38,391 nucleotides of DNA, taken from assembly GCF_000240225.1 (NCBI RefSeq), contig NZ_AGUD01000262.1, positions 1 to 38,391 on the forward strand. Direction: 5' to 3'. The translations under genes and the position numbers were made by a program. The DNA comes from Patulibacter medicamentivorans. Lineage in GTDB: Bacteria > Actinomycetota > Thermoleophilia > Solirubrobacterales > Solirubrobacteraceae. Of this stretch, positions 3,073 through 8,310 are shown in pieces. Each line of letters opens with the position of its first letter. Position 1 is the stretch's first letter. The notes beneath the pieces were generated by a model. It had not been told where the DNA came from. It did no database searches and saw nothing but the letters and a program-made list of their open reading frames with translations.

Positions 3073-3714
3073 GTGCACGCAGGCGATTCGTCAGCCACCG
3101 TCGTGACCCTGCCGCAGCGCGGTGACGGGTCCCATGCGGCTCGGCGCGGGGTGCGGGCCGGCTCCAGGGCGGTGCGCGACAGCGGCCCTCCGCCGGGCTC
3201 GGGCGGCTCCGGCGGCTCGCACGTCCTGGTCCTCAACGCGACCTACGAGCCGATCCACGTCTGCGGCGTGCGGCGCGCGACGGTCCTGCTGCTGAAGGAC
3301 AAGGCAGAGGTCATCGAGACCGGCCAAGGAGAGCTACGGGCAGAGCGGACCTCGCTTCCCAGGCCCGCCGTCATCCGTCTCAGCACCTACGCGCCCGTGC
3401 CTCGGCACGGGCGCCGTCGTTTGACGAGGCGTGCGGTCTTCGCCCGCGACGACTGGACCTGCCAGTACTGCGGCTCGCGCAGCGACCTGACGGTCGACCA
3501 CGTGATCCCGCGCTCGAAGGGCGGATCGAGCGAGTGGGAGAACATCGTCGCCTGCTGCTCGACCTGCAACCGCCGCAAGGCCGACCGGTTGCCGCACCAG
3601 GCGCGGATGTTCCCGCGCCACAGCCCGCGGCCGCCGCACCCGTCGGTCTTCATCCAGGTCGCCTGCCCGCGCATACCCGACAGCTGGCAGGCCTGGTTGC
3701 CGCAGGCGGCTTAG
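3073..3714 (+). CDS. HNH endonuclease family protein
   Basis: A 213-residue HNH nuclease-fold protein of a type common in actinobacteria and cyanobacteria. After about 50 unconserved residues comes the subfamily N-domain (VLVLNATYEPIHVC, then the LLLKDKAEVIE region). The HNH core follows: FARDDWTCQYCG, LTVDHVIPRSKGG, WENIVACCSTCNRRKADR. It contains the two zinc-binding CxxC pairs and the DH of the active site, all intact. The last 45 residues (SWQAWLP near the end) also fit the family. Nuclease activity is likely from motif integrity, but the biological role is unknown. GTG 3073 is used; GTG 3103 is an alternative that loses only unconserved residues. Confidence 0.87.
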   Translation: MHAGDSSATVVTLPQRGDGSHAARRGVRAGSRAVRDSGPPPGSGGSGGSHVLVLNATYEPIHVCGVRRATVLLLKDKAEVIETGQGELRAERTSLPRPAVIRLSTYAPVPRHGRRRLTRRAVFARDDWTCQYCGSRSDLTVDHVIPRSKGGSSEWENIVACCSTCNRRKADRLPHQARMFPRHSPRPPHPSVFIQVACPRIPDSWQAWLPQAA

Positions 3715-3784
3715 GGCTCGTCGGGCGTTCTCCTTGGGCTCGGCTGGGTCACTCGTGGGTCGGGTGGCTCGGCGGGCGTGGTCC

Positions 3785-3901
3785 GCGGGGGGGGGTGGGT
3801 GCGTCCTCGATCGCTCGCGGCCAAGGGGGCTGGGTGCTTGGGTCGGCCGGGTCTGGTTCGGCCGCGAATGGTGCGATCTGCGGCGCACCCACCCCCCCCC
3901 C
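3785..3901 (+). repeat. Long hairpin repeat R1, copy 1
   Basis: The element starts with a run of nine G followed by TGGGTGCG (3787-3803) and ends with the exact reverse complement, CGCACCCA plus ten C (3884-3901). Inside, GATCGC (3808-3813) and TCGCGGCC (3814-3821) on the left arm pair with the right-arm segments CGATCT/GCGATC and GGCCGCGA. The whole 115 bp can fold into one long interrupted hairpin with a central G-rich loop. A 42-bp block (3798-3839) is identical to 4810-4851. Homology to copy 3 also extends outside the terminal repeats. Confidence 0.75.
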
Positions 3902-4089
3902 GCTGTCTTGGCGACCGGTGCCGTGGCGGTCGCGGTCGGGCCGCCCGATGCCGCTCGGCGCTGGCCGGTGGCCGGTGGATCGCGCGTCGGGGCGACGCCG
4001 TGCTGGGCGGCCCTTGGGGGAGCGAGGCGTGATTGGGCGACCGTGGCGGGCTCTGCGTGGGGTCGTCGTCTGGGTGGCGATTACCTGTT

Positions 4090-4124
4090 GTGACCTTGCG
4101 GTCGCTGCGCGACCGGTTTGTCAC
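4090..4124. repeat. Small hairpin repeat R2, copy a
   Basis: An imperfect 35-bp palindrome bounded by GTGAC and GTCAC with core CGGTCGC-TGC-GCGACCG. It belongs to a four-member group in this spacer with the consensus GTGACGTTCCGGTC-loop-GACCG. Confidence 0.6.
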
Positions 4125-4157
4125 GCGCAAGCGCGATTTCGCCAGCCGCGATGGCGA

Positions 4158-4190
4158 GTGTCACGTTCCGGTCTACTCGCGACCGGTTCG
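4158..4190. repeat. Small hairpin repeat R2, copy b
   Basis: Contains CACGTTCCGGTC, a 7-nt loop and GACCGGTTCG. The inner arms CCGGTC and GACCGG are perfectly complementary. It lies 34 nt after copy a. Confidence 0.55.
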
Positions 4191-4283
4191 CGCCGTGGAG
4201 GCGACGGTCGGCCGGCCGCCACGGCAGGTGTGACACCCCAACCACCGGGCGCGCCGGCCGGGCCGACTCGCCGAGCACCCCTG

Positions 4284-4754
4284 CTAGCTGGCGTCGGCCA
4301 CCGCGACTGCGCGATCCAGCGAGGCCTGGGCGTAGCGTCTCCACAGCGGAGCGACCGCGCGCATCAGGAGTCCGCGGCCGCGGCGCGCGACGAAGGTGTA
4401 GGTCCAGGTGACGTCGGTGCCGCCGCCGGGCGCGTGGTCGAAGGCGAATCGGCCCTCGATGCGGGCCACGATCAGGCCGAACGGCCCCGACAGCGGACCG
4501 ACGACGTAGCTGAAGCTGCCGGGACGCTCGACGGCGACGATCTCCTCGGGCGTCCCGGAGCGGTCCGACAGCAGCACGACCCGGCGAGAGCCGGCGCGGT
4601 CCCACGGACCCTGCTGGTCGCGCGTGCCGACGACGGCCGGGAACGGCCCCCACCCGGTCATCATCGTCGTCAGGTCGATCGGCACGATCGCATCGAACGT
4701 CGCCTCGGGCGTGGCGGCCGCGGGACGGCGGACGGTGACGGGCACGCGGGGCAT
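4284..4754 (-). CDS. SRPBCC (START/Bet v1-like) family protein
   Basis: A 156-residue protein with the layout of polyketide-cyclase/SRPBCC ligand-binding folds. It starts with a beta strand (VPVTVRRPAAATPEATFDAIVPIDL) and has GTRDQQGPWDRAGSRRVVLLSDRSG in the middle. A strand pair GRFAFDHAPGGGTDVTWTYTF is followed by the long C-terminal helix (LMRAVAPLWRRYAQASLDRAVAVA) that lines the hydrophobic cavity in this fold. The ligand is unknown. A TAGGCT box ends 6 nt before the ATG and no Shine-Dalgarno is present, so a leaderless transcript is likely. It is isolated between two repeat-rich spacers. Confidence 0.82.
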   Translation of the reverse strand: MPRVPVTVRRPAAATPEATFDAIVPIDLTTMMTGWGPFPAVVGTRDQQGPWDRAGSRRVVLLSDRSGTPEEIVAVERPGSFSYVVGPLSGPFGLIVARIEGRFAFDHAPGGGTDVTWTYTFVARRGRGLLMRAVAPLWRRYAQASLDRAVAVADAS

Positions 4755-4760
4755 GGTCGG

Positions 4761-4766
4761 AGCCTA
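4761..4766 (-). promoter_or_regulatory. Candidate -10 box (TAGGCT), leaderless start
   Basis: On the minus strand TAGGCT is followed by six bases and then the ATG of the SRPBCC gene, the spacing expected when transcription begins at the start codon. Confidence 0.4.
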
Positions 4767-4797
4767 TGGGGGCGCAGTTGGGTGGCGTGGGGTGATC

Positions 4798-4868
4798 CGC
4801 GGGGGTGGGGGTGCGTCCTCGATCGCTCGCGGCCAAGGGGGCTGGGTGCTTCGGTGGGGCGTGGTCGG
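4798..4868 (+). repeat. Hairpin repeat R1, copy 2 (right arm missing)
   Basis: Same orientation as copy 1. It has the CCGCGGGGGTGGG left end and the 42-bp block 4810-4851, identical to 3798-3839. After GTGCTTCGG the sequence diverges and the right arm with the terminal inverted repeat is absent, so this copy is truncated. Confidence 0.7.
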
Positions 4869-4887
4869 GCGATGGTCCGACTTGGCT

Positions 4888-4920
4888 GTGACGTTCCGGT
4901 CCTCTACCGACCGCCTCGTC
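4888..4920. repeat. Small hairpin repeat R2, copy c
   Basis: Starts GTGACGTTCCGGTC and continues through CTCTAC to CGACCG and CCTCGTC. The inner arms CGGTC and GACCG are complementary. It follows R1 copy 2 by about 20 nt. Confidence 0.55.
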
Positions 4921-4959
4921 GCACGAGACGGCGGCGGGTCGGCCGAGCGCGGCGCGGGT

Positions 4960-4992
4960 GGGACGTTGCGGTCGCTCAGCGACCACTTCATC
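4960..4992. repeat. Small hairpin repeat R2, copy d
   Basis: GGGACGTTGCGGTCGCT, a single C, then AGCGACC and ACTTCATC. The stem GGTCGCT/AGCGACC is perfect over 7 bp. Confidence 0.55.
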
Positions 4993-5151
4993 GAAGACGC
5001 TCGCGGGGCGAGCAGGGCGACGTGGCGATCCGGAGCCGCGCGAGTCGACAGCGGCCGCAGCGCGAGTCTTCTGCCTTGCTCGCCAACGAGGAACGCCGAG
5101 CGGCACCGAGCCAACGACCGCGGGCCCCACGGCACCGGTCGTCAAGCCAGC

Positions 5152-5264
5152 GCGGGTGGGGTGCGCGCGCGAGATCGCACGATTCGCGGCCGAACCAGAC
5201 CCCGCAGAACGAAGCACCCACCCCACTTGGCCGCGAGCGATCGAGTGCGCACGCCACCCCCGCG
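5152..5264 (-). repeat. Long hairpin repeat R1, copy 3 (inverted)
   Basis: Read on the minus strand it has the same order as copy 1: GTCCGCGGGGGTGG, a TGCGC end, CTCGATCGCTCGCGGCCAAG, GGGTGCTTCG, GGTCTGGTTCGGCCGCGAAT, GTGCGATCT, and a GCGCACCCCACCC right end. The terminal repeats and internal arms are kept although several bases differ from copy 1. Homology continues beyond the right end (GACGACCGGTGCCGTGG, then GTGCCGCTCGGCG). Confidence 0.7.
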
Positions 5265-5450
5265 GACCAACGCTCGCCATCCAACTGCGCCCCCGCAACC
5301 GACCGACCCCCACAACGACGCGCGGCGCCCCGAAGGACGCCGCGCTGAGAGTGTCGGACCGGTGGCCCGGGTTGGAGCTCCACGTCGCCACGCCAGTACC
5401 GTGGGCGCGGTGCTTCCGCTGGGACGAGGGCGGAACTCCAAGGTCCGGGA

Positions 5451-5577
5451 TGACGCGCGGGGCGCGTCACCGGAGGCCGATCGAGCTGCCTCTAGGAGAC
5501 AGCCACCTCCTGGGTCCCGAAACTACTGTCGATGATTCGGACCACCTCCTTTCTCTGGTGCTGAAGGGAGATCCGAA
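5451..5577 (-). other. Possible small transcript with two strong SD motifs and a 3' hairpin
   Basis: On the minus strand AGAAAGGAGGTGGTCC (5554-5539) matches the complement of the 16S rRNA 3' tail at 15 of 16 positions. A GTG within it (5545) opens a 17-codon frame, MVRIIDSSFGTQEVAVS, ending in TAG at 5494-5492. A second GGAGGTGG lies near its end. A 7-bp stem hairpin (5469-5451) follows. TCCGAA and TTCGGA (5572-5577 and 5536-5541) could pair and sequester the SD. The peptide matches nothing I know. This may be a leader, a small RNA or chance. Confidence 0.25.
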
Positions 5578-5709: not shown

Positions 5710-8310
5710 TCAGGATTCGTCGGTCGCCGGAGCGTCGTCCGTGCCGGCGTCGTCGGTCGGCGCATCCGCGTCGGCGCTGGTCGGCGGCGCCGCCGGGTCG
5801 ACGGGCGGCGCCTCGCCCTCGGGCCCCTCCACGATCGCCTCGGTCGGATCGGACTCCTCGTCCTCGACGATCCGGGCGATCGCGCTGACGCGGTCGTCGT
5901 CGCGGACGTTCATGACCTTGACGCCCTGCGAGTTGCGCCCGTAGCGGTTGATGCCCTTGACGCCGGTGCGCTGGACCATGCCGGCCTCGCTGATGAACAC
6001 CAGCCCCTCGTGCTCGCGGACGACCAGTGCGCCGGCCAGGCCGCCCTTGGCCTCGGTCAGCTGGATCGTCTTGACGCCCTTGGCGCCGCGGCTGGTCTTG
6101 CGGTACTCGCGCACCAGCGTCCGCTTGCCGAACCCGTTGTCGGTCACGACCAGCAGGTCGAGGTCGTCGCGGGCGACGTCCATCGCGATCACGGAGTTCT
6201 TCGCCGGGTCGCTGCCGACGTCCATGCCGCGGACGCCGGTCGTGTCGCGGCCCATCGAGCGAGCGTCGGCCTCGCTGAAGCGGACGGCCAGGCCCGCCTT
6301 CGAGACCATCACGACCTCGTCGTCCGGGTCGACGTTGCGGACGGCGACCAGCTCGTCGTCGTCGCGGACCTTGATGGCGATGATGCCGTCGGCCTTGATC
6401 GGCGTGTTGTACGCCTGCAGCTCGGTCTTCTTCACCGTGCCGCTGCGGGTCGCGAAGATCAGGTACTTCGTCTCGGCGAACTCGCGGGTCGACAGCACCG
6501 ACTGGATTCGCTCGCCCTCGCGCAGCGGCAGGAAGTTCCGCAGGAAGCGGCCCTTCGACTGGCGCGAGGCCTCCGGCAGCTCGTAGACCTTGGACCGGTA
6601 GACCTTGCCGCGGTTGGAGAAGAACAGCAGGTAGTCGTGGCTCGAGCAGACGAAGAGGTGCTCGATGTAGTCGCCGTCCTTCATGTTCATGCCGGTCACG
6701 CCGACGCCGCCGCGGCGCTGCTGGCGGTAGGTGGCCAGCGGCAGCGACTTGATGTAGCCGTCCTGCGTGATCGTGATGACCATCTGCTGGTCGGCGATCA
6801 GGTCCTCGATGTCGATCTCGCCCTCGGCATGGGTGATGATCGTGCGCCGCTCGTCGCCGAACCGCTCGGCGATCTCGAGCATCTCCTCCTTGATCAGGTC
6901 GAGCACCATCTGCTCGTCGCCGAGCAGCTCGCGCAGCTCGCGGATCCGCTCCATCACGTCGGCGTGCTCGGCGCGGATCGCGTCGCTCTCCAGCGCGGTC
7001 AGCTGCGACAGGCGCAGGTCGAGGATCGCCTGCGACTGGATCAGCGTCAGGCCGAAGCTCGACATCAGCTCGCCACGGGCCGTCTCGCGGTCCTTCGACG
7101 AGCGGATCACCTGGATCACCGCGTCGAGGTTGTCGAGCGCGATCAGCAAGCCCTCGAGGACGTGGGCGCGCGCCTCCTTCTGCGCCAGCTCGAACTTCGC
7201 GCGGCGGACGACGACCTCGCGCTGGTGGCCGACGTAGGCGCCGATGATGTCCCGCAGCGACAGCGTCCGCGGGACGCCGTCGACCAGCGCCACGTTGTTG
7301 ACGCCGAAGGTCGTCTGCATGTTGGTGTGCTTGAACAGCTTGTTCAGCACCACCTTCGGCAGCGTGTCGCGCTTGAGCTCGATCACCAGGCGCATACCGC
7401 GCTTGTCGGACTCGTCGCGGATGTCGGAGATCTCGGGGATCTTCTTGTCGCGGACCAGGTCGGCGATCTTGACGATCAGGCCGGTCTCGCCGCCCTTCTT
7501 GACCTCGTAGGGCAGCTCGGTGACGATGATCGCCTCCTTGCCCTGGGTCAGCGGCTCGATGTGCGCCTTCGCCTGGACCCGGATCCGCCCGCGACCGGTC
7601 TCGTAGGCGTCCTTGATCCCGCCCATCCCGAGGATGATCCCGCCGGTCGGGAAGTCCGGGCCCTTCAGGTGCTCCATCAACCCCTCGACGGGGATCGACG
7701 GGTCGTCGATGTAGGCGATCACCGCCGCGATCGACTCCCGCAGGTTGTGCGGCGGCATCTTGGTCGCCATGCCGACCGCGATCCCGGAGGACCCGTTGAC
7801 CAGCAGGTTCGGGAACCGCGACGGCAGCACCGTCGGCTCCATCTTCCGGCCGTCGTAGTTCGGCTGGAAGTCGACCGTGTCCATGTCCAGGTCGCGCAGC
7901 ATCTCCAGCGCGAGCCTGGTCAGGCGGGCCTCGGTGTACCGCATGGCGGCCGGCGGATCGTCGTCGATCGAGCCGAAGTTGCCCTGCGGGTCGACGAGCT
8001 CGTTGCGCATCGAGAACGGCTGCGCCATCCGCACGAGCGTGTCGTAGATCGACGTGTCGCCGTGCGGGTGGTAGTTGCCCATCACTTCGCCGACGATGCG
8101 GGCGCACTTCGCGTACCCGCGGGTCGGGCCGACGCCGAGCTCGGACATGCCGAACAGCACGCGCCGGTGGACCGGCTTGAGGCCGTCGCGGACGTCGGGC
8201 AGCGCTCGCCCGACGATCACCGACATCGCGTAGTCCAGGTACGCGGTGCGCATCTCGTCCTCGAGCGCGCGCGGCTCGATGTTGCCGCCGCTGATCACCT
8301 CGGTGGCCAT
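5710..8310 (-). CDS. gyrA: DNA gyrase subunit A
   Basis: The breakage-reunion subunit of DNA gyrase, which with GyrB introduces negative supercoils. The 866 residues begin with [50 protein letters not shown]. The catalytic tyrosine lies in RYTEARL at about residue 125, and the GyrA box QRRGGVGV at about 529 begins the C-terminal DNA-wrapping beta-pinwheel. After the pinwheel there is an acidic Ala/Asp/Pro-rich tail of about 60 residues ([13 protein letters not shown] onward), unlikely to be folded. It lies 49 bp downstream of gyrB in the same direction with AAGGGA as a likely ribosome-binding site, so gyrB-gyrA are probably one operon, ended by the hairpin at 5668-5700. Confidence 0.98.

Follow-up and report, generated by a model that had tools for sequence, protein, structure and literature searches.

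R1, a family of long stem-loop repeats between genes of Patulibacter medicamentivorans

Bacterial miniature inverted-repeat transposable elements (MITEs) include RUP, NEMIS/Correia, ERIC and CIR, and most of their members are A+T-rich with TA ends (PMC2229807). Repeats able to form intrastrand triplexes are linked with genomic instability (PMC4666352). Here, we describe R1, a family of hairpin repeats present in a 38,391-nucleotide stretch of Patulibacter medicamentivorans DNA (NZ_AGUD01000262.1, positions 1 to 38,391; "the window"), which corresponds to contig C92 in an assembly of 353 contigs and 5.09 Mb (93% complete). Complete R1 copies form hairpins. The copies lie between genes, are preceded on the left by units akin to the left half of R1 itself and are restricted to their own genome among those searched. 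Our preferred interpretation, which is tentative, is that R1 is a species-specific, non-coding, non-autonomous stem-loop element that has spread within the species, usually as an inverted pair.

Copies of R1 and their hairpin

The window copies lie in the two spacers separating an HNH gene (3073-3714, + strand), an SRPBCC gene (4284-4754, - strand) and gyrA (5710-8310, - strand), which were named by reading their translations, without a protein family search on the window proteins. Copy 1 (3778-3905, +) is a complete hairpin followed by a right tail (3906-3960, +; GCTGTCTTGGCGACCGGTGCC ... GCCGCTCGGCG) that is partly common to copy 3 and to the copies on contigs C157 and C33. Copy 2 (4798-4868, +) is a left half alone. 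Copy 3 (5147-5270, -), again a complete hairpin, faces copy 2 and has its right tail at 5093-5146 (-). A preliminary description had placed these copies at 3785-3901 (+), 4798-4868 (+, left half only) and 5152-5264 (-), and these places were borne out. A covariance model built from seven rows, including copies 1 and 3 but not copy 2, gave 106 bits at 3781-3902 (+), 115 bits at 5147-5270 (-) and 27 bits at 4792-4925 (+). The exact run that copies 1 and 2 had been said to share was present, with a length of 43 bases (starting at 3797 and 4809) instead of 42. The longest other runs were of 21 bases between the first spacer and copy 3 and of 20 bases between copies 2 and 3; dinucleotide shuffling of the two spacers, done 100 times, never gave more than 17 bases. 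Across 108 nt, copies 1 and 3 show 82% complementarity. The three window matches contain 72-77% GC and their ends lack TA. With filters off, the first spacer yielded no extra R1 match better than E 0.05 besides the copies already known and the matches to their opposite strands.

At least 14 copies are present in the genome, i.e. the three of the window, two further complete ones (C33 and C157) and nine cut by contig ends (C75, C53, C95, C46, C57, C84, C103, C105 and C40). They resulted from merging the 29 matches at E <= 1 in a search with copy 1, for which the best 40 of 71 candidates were scored. The remaining weak matches (16-41 bases, E 0.026-0.58) were dropped as the opposite hairpin arm, array units or chance. 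Twelve exact occurrences of the core CGATCGCTCGCGGCCAAG were counted, and allowing up to two mismatches gave 15 matches versus 3 for the reversed control. Contigs C84 and C103 end before the core is complete and match copy 1 weakly (E 0.002 and 0.05, respectively); their last 40 bases match the R1 of C157 at 100% and 97.5%. Seven copies are complete or nearly so, with an identity of about 80-97% to C157 or C33. The earlier claim of a repeat family of long hairpins is thus confirmed. Being non-coding, shorter than 200 bp and present in multiple copies between genes (sites judged by reading), R1 has the size and location of a MITE.

A complete R1 opens with GTGGTCCGCGGGGGTG..., forms an outer and a middle stem, and continues with an inner stem, TCGCGGCCAA/TTGGCCGCGA. 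The loop of about 33 nt is G+T-rich, the right arm is C-rich, and a 5-nt bulge reads ATGGT or ATCGT. The whole measures about 125 bp, or about 185 bp with the right tail. The hairpin with a G-rich loop described earlier was therefore found, but its stem consists of 37 pairs plus the bulge rather than of about 40 nt per arm. These pairs form in 35 (C157), 35 (C33), 32 (copy 1) and 31 (copy 3) cases, and copies cut on the right keep 29 of 30 (C75), 27 of 27 (C53) and 23 of 28 (C95) readable pairs. Copy 3 has indeed kept its pairing potential, as had been proposed, but changes between copies mostly break pairs and seldom compensate.

Folding was assessed with single-stranded DNA parameters only, against 200 shuffles per sequence. 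Copy 1 reached -48.4 kcal/mol (z -5.9, and -6.5 on the other strand), and none of the shuffles was as good. C157 (z -6.5 and -9.2 for the two strands) and C33 (z -8.0 and -8.6) were likewise never equalled. The 37-pair stem between the arms provides the terminal inverted repeats, and for C157, C33 and copy 1 no shuffle equalled it. Copy 3 gave -35.1 kcal/mol on one strand (z -2.0, 8/200 shuffles), the weakest result for a complete copy, and -37.9 on the other (z -4.3, 0/200). Shuffled controls, which the preliminary description had called for, thus fold worse than complete copies. The fold of copy 2, which lacks the right half, was at chance level (z -0.3, 79/200 shuffles as good).

We searched for R1 in its own genome and in 100 relatives. 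The covariance model, used with stricter filters and 35 candidates scored per genome, was positive in 1 of 101 genomes, its own. A DNA search gave matches at E <= 0.01 in 11 of 101 genomes (8 candidates scored per genome). In the ten besides its own, the matches covered just 22-65 bases, with E values no better than 1.5e-4, and none of the seven same-genus genomes belonged to these ten. The proposed search for other copies thus found them in the genome but none in relatives. No match was obtained in plasmids and phages (blastn) or in viral contigs (exact 20-mer only). An exact R1 20-mer was found in two stretches among 84,980 species genomes, a collection that may omit records close to the genome of the window. 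Both stretches were on contigs of Lachnospiraceae metagenome-assembled genomes (52% and 59% GC in the available parts) and were taken as chance, their best R1 matches past the 20-mer being of 21 and 25 bases.

Facing copies, flanks and nearby palindromes

One facing pair can be read within a contig. Copies 2 and 3 of the window enclose about 280 nt, and the arms of this pair, 4768-4853 (+) and 5210-5294 (-), are 87-88% complementary and extend about 25-30 nt beyond R1. Five more pairs are suggested by the gene order of relatives. At all 11 R1 contig ends outside the window (the nine cut copies, C33 and C157), the left end of R1 is turned toward the gene; the C33 and C157 contigs continue for 129 and 236 bases beyond the R1 match and then end. 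We searched pieces of 14 flanking proteins in the genus (seven relatives and the own genome). By the relatives' gene order, the 11 ends would fall into six gaps, five of which would have R1 on both rims, facing each other. C40 and C105, like C46 and C95, carry convergent neighbours in 6 of 7 relatives; C57 and C103 carry divergent mfd and guaB (5 of 7), and C84 and C157 co-directional neighbours (5 of 7, with identities of only 38-61%). In the C53|C33 gap, fabI and a SRAP-type gene are adjacent in G006 and less than 2 kb apart in G002 and G005. The facing arrangement is thus independent of gene direction, since convergent, co-directional and divergent gaps are all represented. The gene on C75 (LOG type) adjoins a rhodanese gene in G002, G003 and G005 and has another neighbour in G001 and G007. 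The own rhodanese gene is on C72, a contig that stops about 124 bases past the stop codon and is free of R1. Within these last 124 bases (L219), a 22-bp unit, GGGGGTTGCGGCTGCGGTGGTC, is repeated four times shortly after the gene.

When the right half served as query, the only matches beyond the R1 contigs were three weak ones (E 0.06-0.75), and no additional contig end came up. No further R1-like end was found in the assembly, where the right sides of nine copies lie past contig ends. A facing pair inserted whole as a single unit was rejected, because partners are no more identical than random pairings; copy 2, which is closest to copy 3, is the exception.

R1 was said to bracket the SRPBCC gene. 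This holds as geometry but is probably incidental, because the five other sites have both copies on the rims of one gene gap and because relative G001 has HNH, SRPBCC-like (58% identical) and gyrA genes side by side while R1 was not found in its genome.

The corresponding gaps of relatives are free of R1. Those of the C40|C105 and C46|C95 kinds span 37-140 nt (seven measured) and the fabI|SRAP gap of G006 about 50 by reading; in relatives, too, mfd and guaB are separated by several hundred bases. Strong tandem repeats (Tandem Repeats Finder (TRF) score >= 80) are present in the stretches L180 and L181 (G003), L174 (G007), L156 (G002), L158 (G005) and L170 (G006), of which L181 and L174 at least correspond to the C46|C95 gap, R1-bearing in the own genome. 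The repeat of L174 is a 14-nt tandem array (96-303). That of L180 (832-1171), in the gap between the HNH and gyrA genes of another species, is a 112-nt unit present three times in direct orientation and unrelated to R1.

The right tail GCTGGCTTGGCGACCGGTGC is present in C157 and C33, and copies 1 and 3 differ from it by one base each. Among the four readable tails (copies 1 and 3, C33 and C157), agreement extends over about 40-85 bases, after which the sequences diverge. On the left, R1 is preceded by units of about 53-60 bp that are like its own left half; in C46, these units together with R1's left half make 2.8 copies of a 60-bp unit.

A second, palindromic repeat, D1, occurs close to R1. 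This repeat, of about 31-35 bases (GTGACGTTCCGGTCG...CGACCG...), resembles repetitive extragenic palindromic (REP) sequences and in places forms direct pairs about 72 nt apart. Each window spacer holds two, spaced 70 and 72 nt: 4089-4120 and 4159-4190 (both +) in the first, and 4887-4918 (+), centred between R1 copies 2 and 3, and 4959-4990 (+) in the second. The last, the weakest with 66% to the reference, was missed by the genome pattern search. On C157, one D1 lies 153 nt from its R1, and the 129 bases past R1 on C33 hold no D1 match. D1 gave 78 matches at up to one mismatch in the genome, a count in which some palindromes figure in both readings, versus none for the reversed control, and a pattern search did not find it in the seven same-genus genomes. 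It is far commoner than R1 and mostly lies on contigs without it. D1 as a module tied to R1 was rejected, none of 20 D1 regions picked away from R1 contigs holding R1.

The sequence leading into R1 is rich in G and T and poor in A. Read inward, the 60 bases outside R1 have a G/T fraction of 0.65-0.80 and an A fraction of 0-0.10 in 14 of 14 copies, as compared with 0.37-0.68 in seven hand-chosen gaps of relatives, split in halves. In the window, such stretches run from the end of the HNH gene into copy 1 (3681-3880, +), immediately right of the copy 1 tail (3961-4080, +), into copy 2 (4771-4900, +) and, with opposite polarity, into copy 3 (5231-5360, -). A cut was chosen once the R1 flanks were known (100-nt windows, G+T >= 0.66, A <= 0.06, either strand); 22 of 3830 windows of the 38-kb sequence passed it, all in four patches in or beside R1. 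All 11 R1 contig rims qualified as well, L002 having a second patch away from R1, but only 1 of 20 D1 regions and 1 of 40 stretches of relatives did so. The latter is L150 (G001), in the C84|C157 gap. Some of the gaps that hold R1 may therefore be favourable ground for repeats, given this patch and the relatives' tandem repeats.

The cut was also reached by 4 of 40 further contig starts of the own genome (0.66-0.70), none with R1. One of these four, the start of C41 (L240, 127-193), weakly matches the sequence right of copy 1 at 72% over 69 bases (E 5e-5), which may be a tail remnant or chance. From 20 further stretches, of which four read N and 12 were inspected by eye only, four were scanned: C72, C45 and C90 reached the cut and C102 did not. 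The G/T-rich strand of C90 heads away from the contig end, contrary to the inward rule. By eye, one stretch, GGCGACCTCCTCGGTCCACGA..CCAGGCATCCACCCGCGG, is common to the starts of C90 (L229) and C102 (L230); it may represent a further dispersed repeat family.

Origin of the R1 copies

As a non-autonomous element, R1 would have spread in trans, perhaps via a single-stranded hairpin intermediate, and would have been mobilised by some transposase or recombinase; the hairpin would be where slippage or template switching made the left units grow. In the most economical view, R1 would work like a MITE or a bacterial interspersed mosaic element (BIME), as a self-spreading mosaic element tolerated between genes. 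The MITE-like nature proposed in the preliminary description is thus plausible, but no convincing target duplication and no transposase partner (one family searched) came with it.

Several observations weigh against this interpretation. No Y1 transposase of the REP-associated tyrosine transposase (RAYT) type (PF01797, Y1_Tnp) was found in the assembly (0/1), this being the only transposase family searched; the control search was positive in 6 of 14 genomes. The C75|C72 gap has R1 on one rim only, one window spacer holds a single copy (copy 1), and the gene order across unassembled gaps is taken from relatives rather than read. Gap partners have a mean identity of 0.734 versus 0.712 for random pairings, 1558 of 10000 of which were as high. 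There is no target duplication at the copy 2/3 pair, and an 8-bp match at copy 1, GCTCGGCG, looks like part of the element, because the right tails of copy 3 and of C157 terminate in the same octamer. Finally, 6 of the 40 stretches of relatives hold the tandem repeats mentioned above, unrelated to R1. A REPIN (a REP doublet) driven by a RAYT was rejected, there being no Y1_Tnp in an assembly that is 93% complete.

We considered the possibility that R1 is not mobile and that the G/T-rich arrays arose locally at gene gaps by slippage and duplication, the copies being homogenised by gene conversion. The arrays of related short units beside R1, the relatives' unrelated tandem repeats and the fact that gap partners are no more alike than other copies would agree with this. 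Yet, an asymmetric hairpin, loop and tail shared between several distinct gaps cannot be explained without at least one event of dispersal, and gene conversion alone cannot start a copy at a new site. We find this alternative doubtful while still taking it seriously. It is unlikely that R1 instead belongs to a larger transposon as its long terminal inverted repeat, with a multi-copy interior that was unassembled or unbinned. The left ends pointing outward on both rims have the geometry of terminal inverted repeats, and contigs do break at R1, but the four readable tails diverge, excluding a common interior among those four, and the pair that is read through (copies 2 and 3) encloses too little sequence to accommodate a transposase gene; the centres of the five other pairs lie in unassembled sequence. 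The strong hairpins on both strands and the location of 7 of 11 contig rims at a gene end (by reading) would suit a role as RNA, either as a bidirectional terminator or as a stabiliser of mRNA 3' ends. However, in the seven complete or nearly complete copies only 1 of 37 pairs was changed on both sides, and the covariation score was reached by 106 of 500 shuffles. Pairing was possible in 91.0% of R1 cells versus a shuffle mean of 90.0% (25/500 as high), and in 36-45% when partners were slid. No Rfam family overlapped R1 at gathering or relaxed thresholds. The structured RNA suggested earlier was therefore not borne out; an RNA role is unsupported because covariation is not above chance, and we hold it to be improbable. 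The other four rims are at a gene start, and two of these belong to the divergent mfd|guaB gap, which is no place for a terminator, and the terminator reading was rejected.

BIMEs are said to be bound by gyrase or IHF, and R1 and D1 together could by analogy be predicted to form an architectural protein-binding site. The succession R1-D1-D1-R1 in the window and the D1 beside R1 on C157 are in keeping with such a site, but D1, with its 78 matches, mostly occurs on R1-free contigs, and no result points to a binding protein; we give this prediction little credence. That the copies are assembly artefacts, i.e. fold-back chimeras at contig ends, is very improbable: contig ends truncate 9 of the 14 copies, but five are internal to three contigs, the flanks are unlike genes, and the pairs agree with the gene order of relatives. 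Another origin concerns the rims themselves. On both rims, the strand that is G/T-rich and A-poor leads inward in the 5' to 3' direction, into the hairpin, a polarity that telomeric repeats show toward an end. R1 gaps might conceivably, though with slight probability, be head-to-head rims built strand-specifically at broken or paused DNA ends, each gap recording a repair event; hairpin capping or fold-back synthesis at both break ends would then have been followed by joining, independently of gene direction.

Surroundings of the locus and comparison with known systems

Between gyrA and the HNH gene, a conserved, transcript-like region was observed (5388-5559 on the - strand, and about 5300-5565). 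By eye, it is in place in six same-genus stretches (L145, L152, L158, L168, L176 and L180). The Rfam family Ms_IGR-5 (RF02471) spans it at full length below the gathering threshold (26.8 of 45 bits, E 0.0012) and matches two of the six stretches at E <= 0.5 (L168, 0.021; L158, 0.23). Within the region are AGAAAGGAGGTG and a potential short reading frame (VVRI.DS..GTQEVAV), and its end is formed by a GC-rich hairpin.

Bacterial genomes are usually considered to tolerate long inverted repeats poorly; here, one species carries them as facing pairs in gaps where relatives showed no R1. If our preferred interpretation of R1 as a dispersed non-autonomous element is true, this species would be a case in which a hairpin element spread recently by a route other than the REP/RAYT system. 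Pairs of this kind may be points where short-read assemblies break, so that too few of them are counted.

The preliminary description did not recognise the family from the literature, and searches of the open-access literature likewise showed no such family in titles and opening lines of abstracts. Like MITEs (PMC2229807), R1 is non-coding, of about 100-200 bp, intergenic and dispersed, with a long stem-loop. Unlike most of them, it is GC-rich and has ends without TA, no target duplication shown and no matching insertion sequence found, and it also departs from MITEs by its short units on one side and its facing pairs. With REP doublets, REPINs and BIMEs (PMC3116915, PMC3733652), R1 shares inverted palindromic pairs, an extragenic location, a mixture of repeats and a limitation to one lineage. 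The doublet geometry is present, but the unit of R1 is a hairpin of 37 pairs and about 125 nt, whereas a REP is a palindrome of 20-40 bp (same sources), and R1 differs from REPINs in that the pair read through is about 280 nt apart and the assembly lacks a RAYT-type transposase. The REP-like module of this locus is D1, not R1. Finally, intrastrand triplex repeats (PMC4666352) have in common with R1 that they are G/C-rich, repeated and structure-prone.

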